A DNA stretch of 64,000 bases from Saprospiraceae bacterium (lineage in GTDB: Bacteria; Bacteroidota; Bacteroidia; Chitinophagales; Saprospiraceae). Below are positions 4,233-63,068 of this stretch, piece after piece. The notes under the pieces are model-generated. The model was given only the letters and a program-made list of their open reading frames with translations, was not told the origin of the DNA and searched no databases. Where the stretch lies: contig JABSSL010000013.1 of the NCBI GenBank assembly GCA_013214355.1, positions 1 through 64,000 on the forward strand, given 5' to 3'. The position numbers were made by a program, and so were the translations under genes. How positions within the stretch are numbered: position 1 is the stretch's first letter; each line of letters begins with the position of its first letter.

Positions 4233-5939
4233 TCAATCCGCGCTGTACTTCACCTCTCCTCCCACAATAGTCATTTGTACCTCCGTCTCGAGAATTTCCT
4301 CATCGGTACAAGTCGTTAAGTCTTTAGATAGGACCACGATATCCGCCAATTTGCCTTCTTCAAGAGAACCTTTGTCTTGCTCTTCAAAGCCAGCATAAGC
4401 ATTCCACAAGGTATAGGAATACAGAGCTTCATCACGCGTCATGCGTTGCTCAGGGAAGAATTCCAGGCCCGTATCCACTCGTTTTCTGGTAACCGAAGCA
4501 TACAGGCATTCAAATGGATTGACATCTTCTACCGGTGCATCGGTTCCATTGGCCACTTTTGCCCCGGAATCCAAGAGGGAGCGCCAGGGGTAAGCACCTT
4601 CCTTAGCCCTTTGTTCCCCCAAACGCTTTACAACAAAAGGAGCGTCTGAAGTACAATGAATCCCCTGCATGGAAGCGATTACGTCTAAACTGCTGAAGCG
4701 GGCAATGTCCCTTGGGTGGAGGTGCTGAGCATGTTCTATTCGCCATCTCAGGTCCGTTTTATCTGGATTCTCTGCGAAATTCTTTTCCATAATATCTAAA
4801 ACCACCCGGTTGGCCCGGTCGCCAATGGCATGTACACAAAGTTGCATATTGTGATCAATGGCGAGTTTGGCGATCTTCTCCACCTCGGAGATCGGGGTAG
4901 TGTTTTGGCCATGGAATTCAGACTTATCGTTGTAGGATTTAAGTAGCCATGCACCAAATGCCCCTAAGGCGCCGTCGACCTCTGTTTTAATAGCCTTGCA
5001 GGTAAAGAAATTGTCTCCCGCATTAATAATTGGGAAGCCAGCCATATTGTCCTTCATCCGATCGTGCGAATGCCGCAGCATTACCCACAGCCGGAGGTTC
5101 AAATCCCCCTCCTTCGCCAACTCCTGATACCACTCAATGTCTTGGTAAGAAGAGCCTGCATCTTGGAAAGAAGTAACGCCATTTTCTAAGCATTCCTTTT
5201 GGGCGGCTTCGATTCCTTTGATCCAATTGTCTTTCTTCTGATCATCTGTAAGCGTATTCACGTATTCCTGATAAGCGGCTCTGATAATGGCTTGAGCCCG
5301 TTCCTCAAAAACACCAATGGCCTCTCCCCTGGAATCTCGTACAATCTCTCCCCCACTTGGATTTGGCGTCTCTTTACTCACTCCAGCCAACTCCATGGCC
5401 TTGGCATTAGCAAACAAGCCGTGACCACTGGCATGCCCGAGCAGTACAGGATTATCTGGAGATACCGCGCTGAGCTTATCGTGAAAAGGATAGCCCAGCA
5501 CATTTCGGTCCAAAGCTTCTAGCCATTTCTCTTGATGCCAACCTCTCCCCGTGATCCACTCACCCGGTTTGGCTTTCTTGGCAGCCTCGGCCACCATTTC
5601 AACGATCTCGTCCCAACTTTTAACTTTCAGAAAGTTTAGATTGAGCATACTTTGTCCCAATCCCGAAAAGTGGCCGTGCCCTTCAATTAAGCCCGGCATA
5701 GCAAATTGCCCCTCTAGGTCAATCACTTCTGTCGACTCCCCTTTCAAGAGCTCGATATCTGCTGTAGAACCTACCTTCATAATCCGTCCATCTTGGACAG
5801 CAATGGCTTGGGCTGTAGGTTGGTCAGCATTGACGGTGTAAAAATTACCGTTTATAAAGACCGTATCTGCGCTGTCTTTTGATTGGCAGGCAGATAATAG
5901 GAAGGCTAGAAGCATTCCTTGAAAAATCCGAATACGCAT
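4233..5939 (-). CDS. YtcJ-like amidohydrolase lipoprotein
   Basis: A metal-dependent hydrolase of the amidohydrolase_3 (YtcJ/LAF3) family with a lipoprotein signal (FQGMLLAFLLSACQSK; lipobox Cys about residue 18), so it is expected on a periplasmic or outer-membrane face. Domain signs in order are the N-terminal beta-sandwich (FINGNFYTVNADQP), the metal HxH in IEGHGHFSG, HAIGDRANR in the barrel, the late Asp in GTDAPVE, and the closing GSLEEGKLADIVVLS. The start at 5939 is chosen because it gives the signal peptide; an upstream in-frame ATG at 6044 would add 35 residues without signal character. The substrate is unknown. It is paralogous to the protein at 27354-29066. It may be the first gene of a unit with the methyltransferase and P450, 80 bp downstream. 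Confidence 0.9.
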   Translation of the reverse strand: MRIRIFQGMLLAFLLSACQSKDSADTVFINGNFYTVNADQPTAQAIAVQDGRIMKVGSTADIELLKGESTEVIDLEGQFAMPGLIEGHGHFSGLGQSMLNLNFLKVKSWDEIVEMVAEAAKKAKPGEWITGRGWHQEKWLEALDRNVLGYPFHDKLSAVSPDNPVLLGHASGHGLFANAKAMELAGVSKETPNPSGGEIVRDSRGEAIGVFEERAQAIIRAAYQEYVNTLTDDQKKDNWIKGIEAAQKECLENGVTSFQDAGSSYQDIEWYQELAKEGDLNLRLWVMLRHSHDRMKDNMAGFPIINAGDNFFTCKAIKTEVDGALGAFGAWLLKSYNDKSEFHGQNTTPISEVEKIAKLAIDHNMQLCVHAIGDRANRVVLDIMEKNFAENPDKTDLRWRIEHAQHLHPRDIARFSSLDVIASMQGIHCTSDAPFVVKRLGEQRAKEGAYPWRSLLDSGAKVANGTDAPVEDVNPFECLYASVTRKRVDTGLEFFPEQRMTRDEALYSYTLWNAYAGFEEQDKGSLEEGKLADIVVLSKDLTTCTDEEILETEVQMTIVGGEVKYSAD

Positions 5940-6088: not shown

Positions 6089-6364
6089 ATGCAACGGATA
6101 TCAATTGAATTACGAATTTCCGGAAAGGTACAAGGTGTCTACTACCGGGGCTCCACGAAAGCTAAAGCAGAGGAATTGGGACTTTGTGGATGGGTAAGAA
6201 ACGAAAGCAACGGAGACGTTTGTGCCGTTATAGAGGGGCCGAAGGAGCAGGTTGAGGAGTTGATTGCCTGGTGTGGGGAAGGACCAAGAATGGCTCGGGT
6301 GGACCATATTGAGCAGAAGCCAGGACCATTACAACATTTCGATAACTTTAGGATTTTGCGATGA
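6089..6364 (+). CDS. acyP: Acylphosphatase
   Basis: A 91-residue acylphosphatase, the normal size for the family, hydrolysing acyl phosphates such as carbamoyl phosphate and 1,3-bisphosphoglycerate. The signature GKVQGVYYRGST carries the phosphate-binding Arg, and GWVRNESNGDV holds the catalytic Asn. An in-frame TTG at 6080 would add three residues, but the ATG at 6089 aligns with family starts. The stop overlaps the start of the next gene by 4 bp (ATGA), so the two are translationally coupled. A -7 promoter element lies directly upstream. Confidence 0.93.
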   Translation: MQRISIELRISGKVQGVYYRGSTKAKAEELGLCGWVRNESNGDVCAVIEGPKEQVEELIAWCGEGPRMARVDHIEQKPGPLQHFDNFRILR

Positions 6365-51286: not shown

Positions 51287-53113
51287 CTAAGTTGTTATCT
51301 TTTCAACGCCCACTATTTGGTAAACTTTGCCATTGGACTTTGTTAGTATGTACAACTCTCCCTCTGCATCAACCCCTATTCGCAGCTCCACCCGTCTACT
51401 ACCGGTTACAGCAACTAAATCTGTTACTTCCCCACCAAAAGACACATCTAGACGATAAATTGGAGCTTGCTGGCCTGCCACTACATCGGCAATATTCGTG
51501 TAGAATAAGGTTCCAAGAGAAATATCACCAAAGATGTATTTCCCCTTTAGCTCCTCCACCGCTTCACCAGCATATACATAACCGCCAGAGACCGCACTTC
51601 CCTCATCATGATCATATTGAATAACCGGATCGGTATACTTTCCTTCATCTCCCTCAACGGGATAGACCAATTCGGGATTGGCATATACATCAAATAAGAA
51701 AGTTCCCTCTCGGTGGGGCCAACCATAATTCGCTCCGGCCTGCCCCAGGTTCACTTCCTCCAAGCTGTGCTGACCGATATTGGTAATCAACATTCTACCG
51801 GAACCCGTTTCATCCCAACTTATCCGGTGAGGATTCCGGAATCCATAAGCCCAAATTTCAGGTAGAGCCTTTGGCGTATTGACAAAGGGATTGTCAGCAG
51901 GAATTCCATACTTCCCATTGCGGCTATCTCTACCTAAGGGATCAATCCGAATTACCGAACCCCAGATATGTTCGATATTGTCACAAAGGGAAGGAAGTCT
52001 CTTCAAGGCCAAGCTAGCATCCCCAATTCCTAGATACAACTTACCATATTCCTGGCTACCAGGTGTGGCTAGAGGATTAAAGTTTAGTTCTTGAAAGGTG
52101 TGGGCACCTGAAGCCATATCTACTCTCAATACCTCCCTCTTTGTTCCAGAAAAAATAGAACTAGCAGGGTCGTCTGCTTTCCATTCTAGTAATACAAACT
52201 GTAGGGCAATTTTAATGGAGTCAGGTACTGTGTAATCAGCAGCTGCACTTCCAGCTTTTTCGCTATGGGTCGTGTAGAATAGACCGTTCGTCTCAAAATC
52301 AGGATGAAAAGCCCAACTGGCTAAACCGGATCCTTTACCGGGGTTATCCACAAATTGCGGCAGCTCTGCGGCAGCATCTAGATAAACGGAAAGCGTCCGA
52401 TCCTTTTTTATTTCAAATAGTTTACCGCGCAGATCATGGATAAAAACACGACCTCCAGGAATGGGTTCCATTTGGTTGATTCGGGATACCGGAGTCACTT
52501 CAGAACTTGGAGGGATCTCCAGGTATTCTTCAAGCTGCAAACTTAAACCGGAGGAGGGAATTTTCTCCGCAACGGGATTTAATAGTCCTCCTGGCCGGTT
52601 ATTGGTATTGCGTTTTTCTCCCTCCGAGAATTTATGGATAAAGCCCAAAAGGTCTTCTAAATCCTCGTCTCCCAGCATGGCAAAAGGCGGCATATATTGC
52701 TTGTACTTGGCAAAAAGTTCTTTTGATCTCGGGTCACCTTTCTCTATCATTTCTGGCGGGTTCTTAATAAAAGCCACCAACCAATCTTTTTCTACTTCTG
52801 AAGTCACCCCACTCAGATTTGGGCCTATCCCATTTTCTGCAAAGCTATGACAGCTGGCACAATGTAAATTGAACAACTGCATTCCGCGTTGGATAACCAT
52901 TTCCCCCGTGGAGTACTCGCCTTTCGGCTTGGCACTAGCCTGTGCTGTTTCCACATCAGAACCTGGTGCACAACTGGGTAAAAGTATAAAACTGAATATA
53001 GAAAGTAAGGCAGGGATCAGTAGATGAAATTGAGAAAGGCGTCCTTGGCTTCTTGAGAAATTAGCATAATGATTACTTCCCCACAGCGGGTGCTGTGACA
53101 CTTGTCGTCGCAT
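51287..53113 (-). CDS. Lipoprotein with cytochrome c and PQQ-type sugar dehydrogenase domains
   Basis: A 608-residue exported fusion. A lipobox Cys48 (FILLPSC) follows a basic N-terminus. A c-type cytochrome domain has the haem motif CASCH (C85, C88, H89) and an axial-Met candidate in YMPPF. The second part is a six-bladed beta-propeller like soluble glucose/sorbosone dehydrogenases (GLASWAFHPDFETNGLFY, WAYGFRNPHRISWD, DVYANPELVYPVEGDEG). This family oxidises sugars or sugar alcohols with PQQ or a related cofactor and passes electrons to cytochromes, here built into the same chain. It would act on the outer face of a membrane. Confidence 0.9.
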   Translation of the reverse strand: MRRQVSQHPLWGSNHYANFSRSQGRLSQFHLLIPALLSIFSFILLPSCAPGSDVETAQASAKPKGEYSTGEMVIQRGMQLFNLHCASCHSFAENGIGPNLSGVTSEVEKDWLVAFIKNPPEMIEKGDPRSKELFAKYKQYMPPFAMLGDEDLEDLLGFIHKFSEGEKRNTNNRPGGLLNPVAEKIPSSGLSLQLEEYLEIPPSSEVTPVSRINQMEPIPGGRVFIHDLRGKLFEIKKDRTLSVYLDAAAELPQFVDNPGKGSGLASWAFHPDFETNGLFYTTHSEKAGSAAADYTVPDSIKIALQFVLLEWKADDPASSIFSGTKREVLRVDMASGAHTFQELNFNPLATPGSQEYGKLYLGIGDASLALKRLPSLCDNIEHIWGSVIRIDPLGRDSRNGKYGIPADNPFVNTPKALPEIWAYGFRNPHRISWDETGSGRMLITNIGQHSLEEVNLGQAGANYGWPHREGTFLFDVYANPELVYPVEGDEGKYTDPVIQYDHDEGSAVSGGYVYAGEAVEELKGKYIFGDISLGTLFYTNIADVVAGQQAPIYRLDVSFGGEVTDLVAVTGSRRVELRIGVDAEGELYILTKSNGKVYQIVGVEKITT

Positions 53114-54387: not shown

Positions 54388-56214
54388 CTAATCCAACTTA
54401 GGTATTTCAATAAAGAATTGCGTGCCTTTACCAGGTGCACTTTCGATATTCCACTTGCCGTTAATATTTTCTAGGCGAGATGTGATATTCCGTATTCCGT
54501 ATCCATTGGTCATTTGTCCTACTTCAAAACCAGCACCATCATCGCTGACGGTTAACAAGATATTGTCGCCATCTTCCGAAATACTAATCCAACCATTATC
54601 TGCATCTGCATGCTTCAAGATGTTATTGATCATCTCCATGATGATGTTATAGATATGATAGCTGAGAGAGCCAAAATCGAAGTCTGGTCCTGTATTAACG
54701 AGTAGTTGAAAACTTGTTTTATTATTCTGCTTCAGTTGGGTTAGCAAACTCTGCAAAGCAGCAATCAAGCCGATGGCCTCGACCTTTTCTGGCATTAAAT
54801 TATGGGATATCAAGCGTACGTCCTCATAAACATCGTCAACTAAGACCAGCGTCTTGTCCAAGATACCTTGGGCCTTTTCACCCACGGTAGGGCCGACGGC
54901 TTCCAATTGCCAACGGATAGCGGCAATCTTTGTGTTCAAGTTGTCATGCAATTCCACGGCCATCCGTTTTCGTTCTAGGTTTTGCCCTTTCAATTGAGCT
55001 AGTAAAACTTCTTTATTTTTCTGTTCTAACTCTTTATTCTTTTTACGTAACCTCCAATTTAGGATCGTGATAAATCCCAGCAAAAGGCCTGCCACTAGGA
55101 TAATCCAGAAGAAGAAATCACGCGTCTGCTGTAAGTTCTCATTTTGTAAACGCGTAATTTCTTCTTCCTTCTTTTTACTTTCCAATTGTGCTTCCAAAGC
55201 TGCATAGCGATTGCTAGCTTGCTGCTTCTTCATGCTGTCCTGAGCCACAATGTACTGCTCATAATAATTCAGCGCATTTTCGTAGTCCCCTAAGGCCTTG
55301 TAGGTATAGTAAAGCTGCCAATCTGCCCTGGAAGCAAATTCAATCCAACCAGAGGCAACTGCATATTGATAGGCTTCCAATTTAAGTTGCAGGGATTCCT
55401 GGTGCCGATCTTGTTCATCCAGCACTTCTGCCCTATCGAAAAACAAGGCATAAATCACCCCATAATTTCCGCTTTTCTCGGCTTCCTCCAAAGATTTCCT
55501 AAAGTATTGCTCCGACCGCTCCTTTTGTCCTAATCGTAAAAAGACATTAGCTAAGCCATGATCATTATCAGACCTGAAGTAGCTGTCAAAATTATATTTA
55601 TCGATGAATGAATCCGCCGCTACATAGTAGTGCAAGGCAGAGTCAAACCGCTCTTGCTGATAGGCACTGTAATAGTAATAATCTCCAAAAAAGTCCAAGG
55701 CTACCAATTGATTCTTAAGCTGTCCTGATCGCTTGGCATATTCATATCCTTCCCGAATTGTTTCCAGCGCCTGTTGATGATATCCCGTATGTAATAAAAT
55801 AAAGCCTGCCCCCACTAGAGAGGTCGATAGATCCTGATAATCCGCCCCAGCAAGTCGCAAGGTATCCACCGCCTGATGATAGAATTTAAGCGCCTGGTCC
55901 ATATTACCTTGGACGTCGTAATAGCGACCCTGGGCATTCCTTAAGACCCCCTCAGCTTTGGCCCAAGTAGAGCTTTTTGCCAATTGAATCAATGTGTCTA
56001 AAAGCAGTTCTGAGTCTTCGTATCTTTCATTGATTCGGTAGACGGCATAAGCTGCGTAAGCTCTCACCGATTGTGAATCTCGTTCTGCGGCAGCCTCCAA
56101 TTGTAGGCTTTCCTGATAGTTTTGATACAGACCAATCCAGCCTTGTGTTTTTCCCGCGATGGGAAGGAAAAACAGAATCAAGAAGGGGATCAGATTAATT
56201 CTAGTGCAATTCAA
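54388..56214 (-). CDS. TPR-containing NarL-type sensor histidine kinase
   Basis: A 608-residue kinase with a signal-like N-terminus, a large periplasmic or extracytoplasmic TPR region (about residues 35-330), a coiled-coil, one membrane segment (367-385), and a HisKA_3 domain with phosphoacceptor His423 in AVELHDN. The ATPase part has MEMINNILKHAD, DDGAGFE and YGIRNITSRLENI. This is the common Bacteroidota two-component sensor paired with NarL/LuxR regulators. The gene start overlaps the regulator stop by 4 bp. It probably reads protein or peptide signals in the envelope, relevant to the Ser/Thr kinase cluster just upstream. Confidence 0.93.
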   Translation of the reverse strand: MNCTRINLIPFLILFFLPIAGKTQGWIGLYQNYQESLQLEAAAERDSQSVRAYAAYAVYRINERYEDSELLLDTLIQLAKSSTWAKAEGVLRNAQGRYYDVQGNMDQALKFYHQAVDTLRLAGADYQDLSTSLVGAGFILLHTGYHQQALETIREGYEYAKRSGQLKNQLVALDFFGDYYYYSAYQQERFDSALHYYVAADSFIDKYNFDSYFRSDNDHGLANVFLRLGQKERSEQYFRKSLEEAEKSGNYGVIYALFFDRAEVLDEQDRHQESLQLKLEAYQYAVASGWIEFASRADWQLYYTYKALGDYENALNYYEQYIVAQDSMKKQQASNRYAALEAQLESKKKEEEITRLQNENLQQTRDFFFWIILVAGLLLGFITILNWRLRKKNKELEQKNKEVLLAQLKGQNLERKRMAVELHDNLNTKIAAIRWQLEAVGPTVGEKAQGILDKTLVLVDDVYEDVRLISHNLMPEKVEAIGLIAALQSLLTQLKQNNKTSFQLLVNTGPDFDFGSLSYHIYNIIMEMINNILKHADADNGWISISEDGDNILLTVSDDGAGFEVGQMTNGYGIRNITSRLENINGKWNIESAPGKGTQFFIEIPKLD

Positions 56215-56849
56215 ATCAACTTGTATTTAAGGGCAAATTTGACCAGGCCGATGGCATTCTTTACATCCAGTTTTTTGAAAATGTTATGCCGGTGCGTTTC
56301 TACCGTCCCCTGACTAATGAATAACTCCTCTGCAATTTCCGCAGACGAATATTCTCGTACAATCAGCTTAATGATCTCTAGTTCTCTTTTGGTCAGGTGT
56401 TTGATCTTTTCAAATTGATCATCTCCTTCTTTGGTGGATAGTAACGTCCGCATTACTTCTTGGCTAAAGTGCAACTGACCTGCTGCTATTGTCCGAATGG
56501 CATTTTCCAGTTCTACACGTCCCGCTTTTTTCATCACGTAACCAGATATTCCCGCCTTAAAAGCATCCTGAATACGATCCCCTTGATCGTTGACGGTGAG
56601 CATGAGGATTTTCATATCGGGATACTTTTCCTTGATCTGAAAACTCAACTCAATCCCATTCATGTAGGGCATGCTCATATCCGTAATCAAGATGTCTACC
56701 TCTTTCTCTCCCAGCAATTCCAAGACTTTTCTACTATCATTGACAGTGGCCACCAAATCTATCCCGTCCATAAGATCAAAGAGCAGCCCTAAACTATCTA
56801 GAATGATCTGATGATCATCCACTAGCATTATCCGAATGGACTCTGACAT
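56211..56849 (-). CDS. NarL/LuxR-family response regulator
   Basis: A 212-residue regulator with an N-terminal receiver domain (phosphoacceptor D57 in ILITDMSMP, Lys in VMKKAG) and a C-terminal LuxR HTH (LTKRELEIIKLIVREYSSAEIAEELFISQGTVETHRHNIFKKL). It is the cognate partner of the TPR kinase, whose start codon overlaps its stop. It begins 12 bp after the outer-membrane barrel stop, so it belongs to the same transcription unit. Target genes are unknown; autoregulation of the cluster is likely. Confidence 0.95.
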   Translation of the reverse strand: MSESIRIMLVDDHQIILDSLGLLFDLMDGIDLVATVNDSRKVLELLGEKEVDILITDMSMPYMNGIELSFQIKEKYPDMKILMLTVNDQGDRIQDAFKAGISGYVMKKAGRVELENAIRTIAAGQLHFSQEVMRTLLSTKEGDDQFEKIKHLTKRELEIIKLIVREYSSAEIAEELFISQGTVETHRHNIFKKLDVKNAIGLVKFALKYKLI

Positions 56850-56861
56850 AAAAATCTCTGT

Positions 56862-57494
56862 TTATTCGAAAAAGTAGGTTAAGCCAAAGTGGAACCTAAC
56901 CGTTGTAAAATCCAGTGTCTCACCTAAATCGCCCACATCAGTTCCTGAAAGGGAGGTTGAACCGAAGTTACCGAATCCGATTCTGCCGTCCGCATTAAAA
57001 CTGAGATTCGGAATGATAAATATATGGAATCCACCACCGACAGCAGCGCCCACACCACTACTTTTTAGCTCAAACAATGTGTTTCCATCGAAGGTGATAG
57101 GATCAATGAGTAAGTTATTAAAGGAAATAGCCCCTTCCAGAAAGGGTCGGAACCAACGCAGGGTAGCACCAAAATTATAACGACCACCTACATCAACGGT
57201 AGTCAATTGATAGTCATCCCAATCCAATTCCTGGACAAAGCCAACTTTGCTATAGGAAAATAACACTTCAATATTCTGGTTGATCCCATAAGCAGCCTTC
57301 AAACTGTAACCGACACCGGAAGGTTCGATGTCATCCAAGTCCCCCATAAAGGTACTTTCGGAGTTCCAACTTCCCAGCACCAAACTCACATTAGCAGAAA
57401 AGCCTTTGGTGGAGGATTTTATATCTTGAGCAGCCAGCTGCCAATTTAAGACTAGTACTAACACAAAACCGAGGTAATACTTTGTATAATTCAT
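56862..57494 (-). CDS. Outer-membrane beta-barrel protein
   Basis: A 210-residue exported protein: signal peptide (YYLGFVLVLVLNWQLAAQ) and many alternating beta strands such as YGINQNIEVLFSYSKVGF, YNFGATLRWFRPFLEGAI and GGGFHIFIIPNLSFNADGRIGFG, ending with the aromatic VRFHFGLTYFFE expected of OmpA/OprF-like barrels. It lies between the Ser/Thr kinase and the response regulator in the co-directional cluster, with 51 and 12 bp spacers, so it may be the sensed or regulated envelope component. Function unknown. Confidence 0.85.
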   Translation of the reverse strand: MNYTKYYLGFVLVLVLNWQLAAQDIKSSTKGFSANVSLVLGSWNSESTFMGDLDDIEPSGVGYSLKAAYGINQNIEVLFSYSKVGFVQELDWDDYQLTTVDVGGRYNFGATLRWFRPFLEGAISFNNLLIDPITFDGNTLFELKSSGVGAAVGGGFHIFIIPNLSFNADGRIGFGNFGSTSLSGTDVGDLGETLDFTTVRFHFGLTYFFE

Positions 57495-57545
57495 GATTGA
57501 TAAGTTATGATTCTTAATAGATCCTACACCTTTAGCGGTAGATCT

Positions 57546-59399
57546 TCAGAAAGATTTGTTAAGTGTAATGTTGGTAGATTTCAATTTGATGCGGTTCAAT
57601 TGACTTCCTCGCTTAAATTCCACCAGATCTTTGGATAGATTACTGTATTCCGGGTAAGAAATCGTTAACCATTGGCCATTGATCGCCTGTACAGATTGAA
57701 GATTAATGGCTAAAAATGCTCGTTTTTTTCCTTGGGCACGACGAACCTTTTTCACCGTAGCCTTGACTTTTGCTCCTCTAGGGATGATCAAGTGGTCACC
57801 TTGGTAGATATCGGTGCTTGTGCTTAGATATACGCTTTGCCCTTCGTAGTTCTTCTCACTGGAGACCGTCTCAGCAAAAGTGGCAGAAAGGAACATATCC
57901 GGGATTCGGATCTTCACCGCTTCTCCTGCACTTCGACGTGCTCGATTGTCTGGAGATTCAATTTGACGCGGTACCATTTCTTTTTGGACCGGTGCTTCTT
58001 CCGCAAGGGTCGTTGTAGATTTAGTCGATGGCTTCTCAACAATCTGTTCAGGTTTTGATTCTTTCTTTTGGGGCACTTCCTTCTTCTTTTGTTCCTGCAC
58101 ACCCGACCGTTTCTTGCTTGTAGAATTGTTTGAATTGCTTTTCTTGTTCGTTGTCTTTTTCGCCTTGGTCGATGACTTTTTCTCTGCTTGTTTTTCTGAC
58201 TCTCCCTCGGCGATAGTCGGCTCCTCCTCAAAGCGTTCCAAAAATTCAATAGTACGACCTTCAGGCTGCCCCAATTGAGAAGAATTGACGGGCGTAAGAT
58301 CAGCAAGCACCTCCTCTTTTTCTCCCTCCAATTCCAGGGTAGAAGGAGCATTCTTATCTACTACTATGCCCCCTTGCTCCTTATCTCCACCTCCTCTCCG
58401 ACCAATTACAACAATCAGTAGGCATAAAAGCAAGGCCCCAGCCAATATTCTAAGATCTAGATCAAAGGGTAGTTGGATAGCTTTGAGCTGTGGAAACTTT
58501 GGAAGGCTGAATTGCACAGGCAAAGCCATCCGTGAATTTGAGCTAGGTTTTTGATGTTCTATCTTCTCCACAATCAAGCGGGTATCCACTTTCCCTGTCC
58601 GATAATGTTGTTCCAAATCATGGATAACTTCTTGGGTAGATTGGTAGCGTTTGTTTGGGTCTTTGTGTATTAGCTTTTTGATGATTTGAAGTAGGCGTTT
58701 ATTGGCCCCAGGAATCTGCACCTTCGCCTTCTCGTGCGCAATCTGATACATCAAGGCAGCCTCGGTTTCTCCAGAAAACAAAGATTGCCCACTTAACATT
58801 TCGTAAAACATAACGCCTACAGCGTACAAGTCTGAAGCTTTCGATGGAGCACCTCCTTTCACCAATTCCGGAGAGAGATACTCCAAAGTGCCAATTACGC
58901 TGTTCTGTCTCGTCATTCGCTCCGTATTCTCTAGCCGAGCAATACCAAAGTCCATTAGCTTTACGAAGCCGCGATGCGTGATCATTATGTTACCGGGCTT
59001 CAAATCTCGATGCATAATGCCCAACTCATGGGCCGCGCCCAAACCTTCTAGCACTTGCAGAATAATCTTAGCCGCTTCCGTTTCAGGCAATCGCCCCTGC
59101 AGTTTCAGCATATCATCCAATGCCTGACCATTCACAAACTCCATTATAATGAAATGGGTATCATCCGCAGCTTGAAAATTGAACAAGGTAGCTACATTGG
59201 GATGTGAGATTCTGGCGGATAAGTGGGCTTCATTGCGAAAACGCTTAAAGCTGTCGGGATTGCTCACCAAAAATGGATGCAGCATTTTGATCGCCACTGT
59301 CCGATTCAAGTGTAGGTCGGTAGCTTTGTAGACTGTTCCCATCCCGCCTTCACCGATCCGTTCATTGATATGGAAATTGGATAGTTTTCGACCAATCAT
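57546..59399 (-). CDS. Membrane Ser/Thr protein kinase (Hanks type) with extracytoplasmic domain
   Basis: A 617-residue kinase. The catalytic domain (about residues 8-270) has the Gly loop GEGGMGTVY, Lys38 in AIKML, H130-R131-D132 (HRDLKPGN), and D150-F151-G152, all intact. A membrane helix is near 317-333. A low-complexity Lys/Ser/Gln-rich tether follows, then a C-terminal beta domain (about 505-617; RIPRGAKVKATVKKV, ISYPEYSNL) that I do not recognise as PASTA; it resembles the beta regions of TraB/VirB10-like proteins. Its start overlaps the PP2C stop by 4 bp. It probably phosphorylates envelope-associated targets including the FHA protein encoded upstream. Confidence 0.93.
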   Translation of the reverse strand: MIGRKLSNFHINERIGEGGMGTVYKATDLHLNRTVAIKMLHPFLVSNPDSFKRFRNEAHLSARISHPNVATLFNFQAADDTHFIIMEFVNGQALDDMLKLQGRLPETEAAKIILQVLEGLGAAHELGIMHRDLKPGNIMITHRGFVKLMDFGIARLENTERMTRQNSVIGTLEYLSPELVKGGAPSKASDLYAVGVMFYEMLSGQSLFSGETEAALMYQIAHEKAKVQIPGANKRLLQIIKKLIHKDPNKRYQSTQEVIHDLEQHYRTGKVDTRLIVEKIEHQKPSSNSRMALPVQFSLPKFPQLKAIQLPFDLDLRILAGALLLCLLIVVIGRRGGGDKEQGGIVVDKNAPSTLELEGEKEEVLADLTPVNSSQLGQPEGRTIEFLERFEEEPTIAEGESEKQAEKKSSTKAKKTTNKKSNSNNSTSKKRSGVQEQKKKEVPQKKESKPEQIVEKPSTKSTTTLAEEAPVQKEMVPRQIESPDNRARRSAGEAVKIRIPDMFLSATFAETVSSEKNYEGQSVYLSTSTDIYQGDHLIIPRGAKVKATVKKVRRAQGKKRAFLAINLQSVQAINGQWLTISYPEYSNLSKDLVEFKRGSQLNRIKLKSTNITLNKSF

Positions 59400-60256
59400 G
59401 ATATTCTTATCTTTTGCGTAGGATTATTCGCTTGGTTTAGATCTGTTTGGAAGGTCTCGACAATGAGTACCGAAATGTTGTCATGCCCCCCTCTTTGTTT
59501 AGCCAAATCAATCAAGGACTGAGAGGCTTGACTCATCTTATTGTGAGTAAGGATATGCTTCAGCTCCTCCTCTTTCACATACTCATATAAGCCATCGCTA
59601 CAAATCACCAGTCTATCTCCGACCTCAAATCGTAGCTTGTGTTTTAGAAAGTCCGCTTGTAACTTTGGTGAGGTCCCCATCGCTCTTGTAACCACGTTGC
59701 GTTGAGGATGACTTAAGCTTTCCTCCTCCGTAATCTGGCCGGTGTCTAAAAGATGCTGTACTAAGGTGTGATCATTGGATAACTGTATCACCTGATCTCC
59801 TTTCAATAAATAGGCTCTGCTATCTCCCACGTGGCCCAGATAGATTTCATCTTGTAAAAGAACCACTCCCGTACAAGTGGTACCCATCCCTTTAAACCGA
59901 GGATCTCTGGCGGCCCGCTGATAAATAGCTTTATTGGCTTTTTCGAAGGATTTTCGTAGCGCAGATTCAATGTTATTGTTAGCATCAAAGTAGGTTCTGC
60001 TAATAATATCCGTAGCCATTTTTGAGGCCAACTCTCCATAGCTATAGCCTCCCATCCCATCCGCCACCAGTGCCAGACAACCATGACTAGCCCTAGTTTT
60101 AAGATCAAAGGGACGGATAAATACGAGGTGATCCTCATTATTGTCCCGTACAGAACCTACATCCGTGAGCGCTACCGCTCGATAATCAATTGCGATTGGA
60201 GCTTGGTTTTTCGGGCGAGGTTCGGGTTTCTGTCTCTTCAGGAATGAAAATGCCAT
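59396..60256 (-). CDS. PP2C-family Ser/Thr protein phosphatase
   Basis: A 286-residue PPM/PP2C phosphatase. Metal-binding motifs are DVGSVRDNNEDH, VADGMGGYSYGE, HVGDSRAYL, CSDGLYEY and GGHDNISVLI, with all expected Asp residues. It lacks a membrane segment, so it is cytoplasmic. It overlaps the Ser/Thr kinase gene and would reverse its phosphorylation, forming a phosphoswitch. It starts 109 bp after the FHA-protease gene stop; the three likely form one signalling operon with the downstream genes. Confidence 0.95.
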   Translation of the reverse strand: MAFSFLKRQKPEPRPKNQAPIAIDYRAVALTDVGSVRDNNEDHLVFIRPFDLKTRASHGCLALVADGMGGYSYGELASKMATDIISRTYFDANNNIESALRKSFEKANKAIYQRAARDPRFKGMGTTCTGVVLLQDEIYLGHVGDSRAYLLKGDQVIQLSNDHTLVQHLLDTGQITEEESLSHPQRNVVTRAMGTSPKLQADFLKHKLRFEVGDRLVICSDGLYEYVKEEELKHILTHNKMSQASQSLIDLAKQRGGHDNISVLIVETFQTDLNQANNPTQKIRIS

Positions 60257-60365
60257 AGCCGGAGAATATTTTGTTTGAATGAATTCCTTGGATTTGTAAG
60301 GTGTTTCGGAAGAAGTTATGTCTCAGCTTATATTTTCGCTGAAACATAACTTCAACTGTTTCGAT

Positions 60366-62048
60366 TTATTGAATTACCGGTGTCAAGTGCATCAAGTCTA
60401 GACCGTATTTGATTGGAATGGCGAATGTAATTCTAGCTCCTTCGGCCGAAGTAGTTGAGGCGGCAAAGATGGCGATGACTTTTCCATCTTTATCAAAAAC
60501 AGGTCCTCCACTATTTCCTGCACCAGTTTCGCTGGCTGTCAGCTGGTAGTATTCACCCATTGGACTGTAATAGCCGCTTAGTTCGGCATTATTAGATAGA
60601 TTACTTCCTCTAATGATCTTACCAATGGTACCATCTGTAATGGTTGGATCAGGTACAACTTTGACTTCTCCTGCAGCTCTACCAAATTCTTGCGTAGCTC
60701 GTCCATAGATTACCGTTGGAGAGATTCCTGGATAACCCATTACGGCAATCTTTTGCCCTTGTACGGCTTCTGCTCCATCCTCCTTCAGTTCTACGGGTGC
60801 AAACTCTGCCATGTGATCCACTTTGATCATTGCTACATCATGATTAGAACTTGATTGTACCATTCTAGCATTGATTCTGGAATCTGTTTTCGCGAAGGTG
60901 ACGTTCATGTAAGTGCTCTCTCCTGCCAAGATCTTTCCAGAAACAGGCTCTCTTCCGAAGAATTTGGATTCAGAGGGTATCCATCTGGCTGGGGCTTTCA
61001 CTCGGCCGGTTATCTTCCACTTTCCTTCAACCCTTTGATATAGCAAGCCCTGAGAAGCTTCGCGTGGGAAAGTGTAAGGGTATTTCCAAGGTTCAGCGAT
61101 GTGCTTATTGGTAAGGATGTAACCATCTTCATCTACGATGAAACCCGTACCAGAGAGGGATGACATAGCAATAGGAGCTCCCTCTACCACATCTTTCTTC
61201 AATCCTAGCAATGGCTCTATCACACCAGGCTCCATTTCAATAAACAGTGGCATTACATATTCCTTTCCGGTTTTTTCATCCTTCTGGCGAGTATACTGAT
61301 GGTAGATATCGTCTCCGGTAGGTGCATGGATCAATTTGAACCCAAACTCGATAAATACTACCTTATCGGTGTTTTCCTTGGCAATTCTTGCAGGAGAAAA
61401 GGCTTCTTCCACTACCGTGGTGGTATTGGTGATTACTTTCACCGTATCGGTTCCCGCTGTAAAGTCATCTTTGGAAGGGATTAATTGATCTTTAAAAGTA
61501 TATCCTAAAGCTGTAGTCACTAAAAGGATAGCCCCAATAACAGAGATTAAGGTTTTTTGAGATCGCTTGCGTTCGGTGAAAATCGCTCGCTCAAAGGTTT
61601 CCTTACCGATCCCTTGCTTAGCAGGAGTGGTTTCTACAATACTGTGCTCCATAGTAGGATCTGCTGCTGGAATTTGAATCAATTGCGTAGCTGCTTCCCC
61701 AACTGGGCTAGGATTAAGGTCAAATTGAAAACGTGGTCCCTTGGCGCCTAAAGACACCTCATCTCCTGGGCGTAGATGGTGACTCCCCGTAATCTTTTGT
61801 CCGTTTACATAAGTGCCGTTCAGACTATTGTGATCGGTAATTGTGAAGGTCCCAGCTGTTTCTCCCCTTTCAATTGCACCATGTTCTCGGCTTACAGCGC
61901 TGTCCTGATCAACATCAAATTGCAGTTGATTGTGCGCAGCACGCCCGAAGCTAATCGTATTGTTATCCTGATAATCAAATTCCTCAATTTGATTCGCCTT
62001 ACTCCCACTCAGGTGTCTAATGATGATTTGTTTTATCTCCTTGTTCAT
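60366..62048 (-). CDS. FHA domain-transmembrane-trypsin-like serine protease
   Basis: A 560-residue protein. An N-terminal FHA domain (about residues 1-110: SFGRAAHN, SREHGAIE, NSLNGTYVNG) should bind phospho-Thr. A membrane helix (166-183) follows, then an extracytoplasmic trypsin-like domain with catalytic His316 (TNKHIAEP), Asp404 (NHDVAMIKVD) and Ser513 (GAGNSGGPVF). The G-T-GFIVDEDGYILTN start is HtrA-like, but no PDZ domain is present. The layout joins an inside phosphosensor to an outside protease, next to the PP2C and kinase genes. Confidence 0.93.
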   Translation of the reverse strand: MNKEIKQIIIRHLSGSKANQIEEFDYQDNNTISFGRAAHNQLQFDVDQDSAVSREHGAIERGETAGTFTITDHNSLNGTYVNGQKITGSHHLRPGDEVSLGAKGPRFQFDLNPSPVGEAATQLIQIPAADPTMEHSIVETTPAKQGIGKETFERAIFTERKRSQKTLISVIGAILLVTTALGYTFKDQLIPSKDDFTAGTDTVKVITNTTTVVEEAFSPARIAKENTDKVVFIEFGFKLIHAPTGDDIYHQYTRQKDEKTGKEYVMPLFIEMEPGVIEPLLGLKKDVVEGAPIAMSSLSGTGFIVDEDGYILTNKHIAEPWKYPYTFPREASQGLLYQRVEGKWKITGRVKAPARWIPSESKFFGREPVSGKILAGESTYMNVTFAKTDSRINARMVQSSSNHDVAMIKVDHMAEFAPVELKEDGAEAVQGQKIAVMGYPGISPTVIYGRATQEFGRAAGEVKVVPDPTITDGTIGKIIRGSNLSNNAELSGYYSPMGEYYQLTASETGAGNSGGPVFDKDGKVIAIFAASTTSAEGARITFAIPIKYGLDLMHLTPVIQ

Positions 62049-62059
62049 GACTATATTTT

Positions 62060-62183
62060 TTAATAATTGTTATTAAATCAAGTATGACACAAAGATGGGG
62101 CGGAATGCACGCCTGGGAAATAGAGGTTTGCCTGGGAATTCGATTAAGAAAGCCTGGATATTTTTCTATAGGTTTTCCTATAG
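62060..62183. repeat. Two short inverted repeats upstream of the FHA-protease gene
   Basis: TTAATAA-TTG-TTATTAA at 62060-62076 lies 12 bp before the protease start, and CTATAGG-TTTT-CCTATAG at 62166-62183 forms a tight 7-bp stem farther out. They lie in the 363-bp gap (62049-62411), which otherwise holds no gene. The first could be an operator or part of the promoter; the second a hairpin. Confidence 0.5.
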
Positions 62184-62411: not shown

Positions 62412-63068
62412 CTAGTGATCGGCTAGGTAAACTTCAATTTGCGCCTTCAAGGCTTCGGATTCTTCTATTACTAGTTGGTAGTCTCTCAATTTTTGCCCCA
62501 CTAAGGATTGATAAATAATCAGTGTATTTTGAAGCACCAGGAGTTCCCCGTCCGGAAGCAGCCGCATGTTCAACAGGTCTGTATTAAATCGTAGCCAAGT
62601 CACCAATTCATCCAAAAAATAATCCGCTTGGATTTCATTCTTGCTGATGGTCTCTTGAACTCTCCCATCATAAAAGTCACTCAGCGTCTTCTGCAATTGG
62701 GGATCATCAATCAGTTTGAGCTTTCCGGAGGACTTCATGGAATTGTAGATGGAATTATTGGGAGCATAATTTTCTACCTGTAAGATGGATGGTAATTTAC
62801 CTTCCGCAGCTCCGACATTATTGGTAGATAAAAATAGAAGGAGGCTATCTACGTCTTCTTGATAATTTCTATTAAACGGAATCTGGTAATCTTCAAAAGA
62901 CTTAATATCTGCCTCAAGGTCATTCACCATAGAACGCATCAATAATCGGGCTTCCTTACGCTCCTCATTCGTCTTACCTCTAGCATCAACGTAAAAGGCT
63001 AGATAAACGCCCAGTATGACAGCTATGAAATTCAGGAGATGATTTAACCAATTGTATCTTTTCTTCAT
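62412..63068 (-). CDS. Membrane-anchored hypothetical protein (DUF6090-like)
   Basis: A 218-residue protein with a single N-terminal membrane helix (LNHLLNFIAVILGVYLAFYV, about residues 9-28) and a long, highly helical extracytoplasmic part with charged heptads (ERKEARLLMRSMVNDLEADIKSF and more). The YNSMKSSGKLKLIDDPQLQKTLSDFYDGR segment is similar in style to Bacteroidota DUF6090 proteins of unknown function. It lies between the protease gene and the subtilase. Confidence 0.65.
   Translation of the reverse strand: MKKRYNWLNHLLNFIAVILGVYLAFYVDARGKTNEERKEARLLMRSMVNDLEADIKSFEDYQIPFNRNYQEDVDSLLLFLSTNNVGAAEGKLPSILQVENYAPNNSIYNSMKSSGKLKLIDDPQLQKTLSDFYDGRVQETISKNEIQADYFLDELVTWLRFNTDLLNMRLLPDGELLVLQNTLIIYQSLVGQKLRDYQLVIEESEALKAQIEVYLADH

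Follow-up and report, generated by a model that had tools for sequence, protein, structure and literature searches.

Why would a bacterium keep, in one operon, the proteins that write, erase and read phosphothreonine together with a protease predicted to lie outside the cytosol and an outer-membrane protein? Serine/threonine phosphorylation in bacteria has seldom been tied to a defined event across the membrane, and the operon studied here unites these parts. It lies in the first 64,000 nucleotides (the window, meaning the whole stretch analysed) of contig JABSSL010000013.1 from a Saprospiraceae bacterium (assembly GCA_013214355.1), within a genome of 11.19 Mb, labelled G000 below, whose close relatives are metagenome-assembled genomes named Saprospiraceae bacterium or uncultured Lewinella. 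We lean, without great confidence, towards a trans-envelope phospho-switch, governing the periplasmic protease and built from a conserved core of four genes. The other two genes, a two-component pair, most likely drive transcription of the core.

All six open reading frames (ORFs) are on the minus strand, at 60366-62048, 59396-60256, 57546-59399, 56862-57494, 56211-56849 and 54388-56214, with successive spacings, from the protease end, of 109, -4, 51, 12 and -4 bp. These coordinates bear out the positions, strand, gaps and overlaps given in an earlier note on this DNA, and Pfam and NCBIfam matches confirm the domain types that it named: an FHA domain with a protease, a PP2C phosphatase, a Ser/Thr kinase, a NarL-type pair and, weakly, an outer-membrane barrel. 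The 109 bp that separate the protease and PP2C genes show no terminator-like site on the minus strand; a sigma-70 promoter scan is uninformative for Bacteroidota.

Gene order in other Bacteroidota had been named beforehand as a test of the unit, and several genera and families were found to keep the core order, which is not unique to this genome. The series FHA-transmembrane-trypsin protease, PP2C, Ser/Thr kinase with a transmembrane (TM) segment and periplasmic domain, and small barrel occurs in at least four Bacteroidota families, with protease identities of about 35-50% among the genomes that carry the core. A search with the protease recovered full-length relatives from all 4 genomes of the genus and from 18 of the 398 genomes of the family (9 of 112 genera), as well as from families f21, f30 and f44; the plasmids searched gave none. 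Their neighbourhoods repeatedly read protease, sometimes an extra kinase, PP2C, kinase and barrel, and some contigs end within the operon. A bare FHA protein replaces the protease in family f74, where the kinase bears PEGA repeats. The six-gene unit of the earlier note thus stands as a conserved core of four, its full form being confined to one clade.

The protease ORF (60366-62048) encodes 560 amino acids, in which an FHA domain (residues 32-101, 61746-61955; Pfam, 1.5e-16), predicted to be cytoplasmic, is followed by a TM segment (about residues 167-185, 61494-61550; Kyte-Doolittle score 2.03) and a trypsin-fold serine protease domain (residues 300-548, 60405-61151; Trypsin_2, 3.3e-19), predicted to be periplasmic. 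The catalytic triad H316/D404/S513, its serine within the motif GNS513GG, is invariant in 20 orthologues, as are the FHA ligand residues G35, R36, S53, R54, H56, N77 and G78; the protein thus has the defining residues of both the trypsin fold and the FHA domain. The otherwise variable linker between the FHA domain and the membrane contains a threonine, T121 (codon 61686-61688), present in 20/20 orthologues; it is preceded by A or K (ten each) and has I, M or V at +3 in all but one. Three distant FHA-trypsins from another type of operon (L043, L045 and L046) carry a threonine at a similar place after the FHA domain. A threonine beside an FHA domain is a common phospho-switch, as in GarA and Fha1, and by this analogy T121 is a candidate phospho-switch of the protease. 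The intact FHA domain and the invariant T121 make it plausible that phosphorylation controls the protease.

A trypsin-fold protease outside the cytosol, accompanied by a barrel and a two-component activator, would also suit plain envelope quality control, in which phosphorylation tunes a protease that degrades misfolded proteins of the periplasm or outer membrane and has no role in conflict. We give this reading real weight, though somewhat less than an even chance. The protease shares its trypsin fold, membrane anchor and periplasmic location with HtrA, DegS and MarP, but it carries an FHA domain in front and lacks the PDZ or other substrate-binding domain of HtrA: the Pfam scan found no PDZ after the protease domain, and the protein scores 54.7 bits against the NCBIfam cut-off of 416.2 for HtrA/Do (TIGR02037), 30.7 against 423 for DegS and 50.1 against 250 for MarP. 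The earlier description of the protease as HtrA-like holds for the fold and not for the family. Most relatives, moreover, are without the system, unlike the case for housekeeping proteases, and quality control leaves the TIR and patatin sister operons described below unexplained.

The remaining core genes supply the enzymes of phosphorylation and a possible sensor. The PP2C gene (59396-60256) encodes a cytosolic phosphatase of 286 amino acids that belongs to the Stp1/IreP type, exceeding the equivalog cut-off of NF033484 (252.7 against 230 bits). The kinase (57546-59399; 617 amino acids; Pkinase, 6.5e-59) consists of a kinase domain (residues 9-260), a TM segment (about 314-332; score 2.63), a low-complexity linker and a C-terminal beta domain. 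One predicted TM segment in each of kinase and protease agrees with the proposal that both cross the membrane, and the placement of the phospho-signalling parts inside, joined to a protease that is predicted to lie outside, is likewise supported. The kinase is comparable to the PASTA kinases (PknB/Stk1) that act with Stp1 in its kinase domain, single TM segment, extracytoplasmic sensor domain and type of partner PP2C, but a VirB10/TraM-like domain stands in place of PASTA repeats, none of which were detected in the Pfam scan; the match to the PASTA kinase equivalog reaches 305 bits against a cut-off of 450 and stops at residue 277. The fourth gene (56862-57494) encodes a predicted outer-membrane beta-barrel of 210 amino acids with a signal peptide, similar to NspA, OmpA and OmpW (profile match to NspA, 2.4e-6). 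Its Pfam match, OMP_b-brl, is weak (4e-5), yet was obtained for 13 of 14 orthologues. The barrel was also considered as a relative of conjugative TraO and this was rejected, there being no such Pfam match.

The periplasmic tail of the kinase (about 128 residues, 57549-57932) resembles, distantly, the beta domain of VirB10, TrbI and TraM, as judged from profile and structure matches. A combined profile of the tails of the kinases and of the TIR proteins introduced below aligns with TraM by hhalign at E=2.6e-5 over 121 columns, with all unrelated controls at 0.16 or worse, and TraM of Bacteroides conjugative elements is matched weakly by 3/16 kinase orthologues. Foldseek, run on a low-confidence model of the tail, placed ComB10, CagY and TrwE at the top of the PDB matches (prob 0.99, E 0.11), and alignment of the model by VIA gave Z 4.8 (model pLDDT 49); a search of the PDB by sequence with the tail profile found no VirB10 chain. 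The kinase shares with these conjugation proteins an N-in topology, a long linker and a C-terminal periplasmic beta domain, but differs in bearing a kinase, or in the related proteins a TIR domain, at the N terminus. Because a search of its own genome gave no TrbI or TraM match, the tail is not regarded as a component of type IV secretion.

The sequence shows a core of conserved order in which the kinase, phosphatase, FHA and protease sites are all intact, and these parts suggest how the phospho-switch might work. The barrel and the VirB10/TraM-like tail would together form a sensor reaching from the outer to the inner membrane, and a disturbance of the envelope would alter kinase activity. 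The kinase would then phosphorylate itself or the protease linker, where T121 is the likeliest target; binding of the resulting phosphothreonine by the FHA domain would cluster the protease with the kinase and activate its periplasmic domain, and the PP2C would reset the switch. Since a candidate operator has been mapped (see below) and there is a single candidate phosphosite, each of these steps is testable. The protease, the kinase tail and the periplasmic face of the barrel are predicted to meet in the periplasm, which would also allow the reverse order of events: the protease could be the sensor, cleaving the tail or the barrel under stress in the manner of DegS, with the kinase then signalling inward. 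The FHA domain would have no clear purpose in such a scheme, though its ligand residues are invariant, and we think it improbable.

Several observations weigh against the phospho-switch and its regulation as drawn here. One FHA homologue (L084) has no protease, so that a protease output is not universal. Contact between barrel and kinase tail is suggested by gene adjacency, and binding of the regulator to the operator by their co-occurrence; in one genome with the two-component pair, G548, the operator is reduced to a half-site. The tail falls below the Pfam cut-off for TrbI (E=0.0018, 18.6 bits against 35), hhalign of the tail profile missed a set of five TrbI sequences, and TIR-type tails alone gave no hhalign match to TraM. 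The AlphaFold models, built with four sequences, are poor: the kinase tail has the pLDDT of 49 given above and the protease a pLDDT of 33, and the latter model was not used. Finally, relatives of the tail domain also exist as short secreted proteins without a partner. One of these is encoded in the same genome (contig 13; L172:9331-9966). Because these related domains occur outside the operon, the tail domain is wider than the kinase-protease system.

The last two genes encode a response regulator of the NarL/FixJ type (56211-56849), with a receiver and a GerE helix-turn-helix over cut-off (Response_reg and GerE), and a sensor histidine kinase (54388-56214) with HisKA_3, HATPase_c and tetratricopeptide repeats (TPRs); together they have the domains of a NarL/LuxR two-component system. 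Of the two, the histidine kinase carries a signal peptide and a single internal TM segment (367-385), and its TPRs are predicted to be periplasmic. Both are accessory and clade-specific. The earlier note counted them in the six-gene unit and proposed that the phospho-signalling feeds them. Linkage to the core was seen in 9 genomes (6 genera), and none with core operons of other clades. In G045, G548, G140 and G737 the best genome-wide match to the regulator lies in or near the core operon, at 51-62% identity, with the runner-up at 46% or less; genomes of other clades that carry the core have a top match of at most 44%, located elsewhere. On the protease tree, linkage to the pair changes 3 times, against 6.1 with shuffled labels. 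As judged from these distributions, the pair is an add-on of one clade. Five other loci (L039, L065, L066, L067 and L068) have, near the protease and without a NarL pair, a sigma-70-family factor of the extracytoplasmic function (ECF) type with a TPR protein, and these may be a substitute regulator.

The proposed direction of signalling is not supported either: the DNA speaks for the opposite, with the pair acting on transcription of the core by way of an operator of its own. About 118 bp upstream of the protease gene is the palindrome CTATAGGAAAACCTATAG (62166-62183), of the general form CTATAGG-N4-CCTATAG, which is presumed to be the site of the NarL-type regulator. This exact sequence occurs once in the genome (expected 0.005), and twice in G045; in a reversed-pattern control, two-mismatch matches in G000 were at chance level. 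It is found at the same place in G199, G200 and G045, and in G462 before the regulator gene. Sites matching at 11-12 of 14 positions precede the core operons of G201, G462 and G737 and the head gene of the G140 operon, and all three near-matches in G737 fall within 5.4 kb around the operon. For thirteen operons that lack the pair, the 500 bp searched give scores of 8-10, a background level; in the whole genome of G114, which lacks the pair too, one two-mismatch site occurs.

The motif NAnnTTTG is the -7 element of Bacteroidota, and a box of this kind, CATCTTTG (62090-62097, minus strand), begins 86 nt downstream of the first base of the palindrome. The same spacing of 86 nt is found in seven genomes (G000, G199, G200, G201, G462, G548 and G737); it is 85 at both G045 sites, 88 at the second G737 site and 88 or 62 in G140, and the sites at the G462 regulator gene and the G737 histidine kinase depart from the 85-88 range. 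In the 2.8 million positions of the fetched loci, every palindrome of at least 11 matches with a box at 84-89 nt belonged to a genome that has the pair. The linked regulators share similar DNA-binding helices, reading GTVETHRHN or close to it, while that of a non-linked regulator differs. Because the palindrome co-occurs with the pair, its spacing to the -7 box is near-fixed and the helices are alike, the most probable reading is that the pair switches on the core and, in this genome, itself as well, forming a positive loop. The regulator and histidine kinase would act through the palindrome on the core and, where their genes belong to the operon, on themselves, and a site about 86 bp before the -7 box suits an activator.

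The pair might instead be a chance neighbour, given that it is missing from most core operons and that NarL pairs are abundant. An orthologous pair is linked in several genera, however, even where layouts are rearranged (divergent in G140, about 10 kb off in G737, and after the barrel and three other genes in G462), and an operator in front of the core, at a near-fixed spacing, is confined to genomes with the linked pair. We reject chance linkage on this operator evidence and regard it as very improbable. Apart from the core operons, the second exact palindrome of G045 (contig 11; L193:8021-8038) is 85 nt before a -7 box and upstream of a gene for a secreted DUF5122 beta-propeller protein with a type IX sorting tail, which is likely to be a further regulon member. 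Locus L086 of G737 has two further operator-like sites at 4308-4325 and 6320-6337, before a gene pair of an unknown protein and an ABC transporter and at a second TPR histidine kinase, which would form a local regulon with the core.

The barrel leads beyond the kinase and protease. Used as a query, it found matches in 39/388 genomes of the family, in three main kinds of neighbourhood; seven weak or truncated matches fit none. The first kind is the kinase/FHA-protease operon. The second, in about eleven genomes with some contigs broken, joins a TIR-TM-beta-domain protein, the barrel and a patatin, and the third, in four genomes, is a kinase/PP2C/FHA-kinase operon with a MotA/ExbB-like protein. 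Well-matching barrels adjoin a beta-domain protein of the kinase or the TIR type; weak matches without such a neighbour (L127, L140-L143) were set aside. A profile of kinase tails only finds the TIR-protein tails at 1e-17 to 1e-30, and the reciprocal search also succeeds; by these profile searches, the two are the same domain. Because this domain and barrel family recur with either kinase or TIR, barrel and beta domain would seem to be one portable sensor, joined here to the kinase and protease and elsewhere to a TIR domain and a patatin gene. The motifs of the sister operons look intact (the conserved glutamate motif of TIR; GTSTG and DGG of patatin).

TIR and patatin are bacterial immune effectors, as in Thoeris TIR and CBASS CapV, and the same sensor parts joined to them would link envelope sensing to immune-type effectors. 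The operon could then be an immune or conflict system, in which barrel and beta domain sense an attack on the envelope by phage, predator or toxin and the kinase and protease, like TIR and patatin, give a damage or cell-death output. The sharing of sensor parts with intact TIR and patatin would fit this, as would the patatin genes that stand divergently beside three kinase-type operons, the patchy spread through the family (the 18 genomes noted above) and a protease tree that departs from taxonomy. Set against these are the PADLOC matches, which are to a generic kinase, trypsin and PP2C only, a dedicated two-component activator, more usual in stress responses, and a protease predicted to lie outside the cytosol; for the kinase operon we consider an immune role possible but unlikely. 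Equally tentative, and in our view doubtful, is the broader idea that barrel and VirB10/TraM-like domain are a portable receptor from outer to inner membrane with either kinase/FHA-protease or TIR/patatin outputs, that is, a cell-surface immune receptor by which attack would be sensed at the outer membrane before entry.

At L098, L099, L100, L130, L132, L134, L136 and L137, a patatin phospholipase gene shares an operon with genes for a TIR-TM-VirB10/TraM-like protein and a member of the same barrel family; no description of these operons was found. Loci L128, L131, L133, L138 and L046 encode a zinc-ribbon-FHA protein, an FHA-kinase, a MotA/ExbB-like proton channel, a PP2C, a TM kinase and a coiled-coil protein; the first four include a barrel of the same family, L046 has an FHA-trypsin, and the coiled-coil protein of L046 carries a vWA match.

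Each ingredient has precedents: clusters of phosphothreonine writer, eraser and reader, proteases of the periplasm, VirB10 tails, TIR and patatin. The nearest cluster is PpkA-PppA-Fha of the type VI secretion system (T6SS), which likewise groups a membrane Ser/Thr kinase, a PP2C and an FHA protein; here the FHA domain is fused to a periplasmic protease, and a barrel and a VirB10-like tail are present. The scan of the flanking genes, to which the search for T6SS genes was limited, found none. The sister operons share effector folds with the TIR and patatin immune effectors, but tie them to an envelope-spanning sensor. In vWA-MoxR and related conflict systems, trypsin, FHA, kinase and TIR are exchangeable modules (PMC7159879); an envelope sensor of barrel and beta domain is not part of those systems, and the terms "outer membrane" and "patatin" are absent from that text. 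Among open-licence full texts we found no paper on the operon or on any joining of these known ingredients, in keeping with the earlier view that the set is undescribed.

Two flanking genes were also noted. Downstream of the operon, 51287-53113 encodes a cytochrome c fused to a glucose/sorbosone dehydrogenase domain. Upstream, 62412-63068 encodes a membrane protein of no known family, which is kept in two congeners (L072 and L073).

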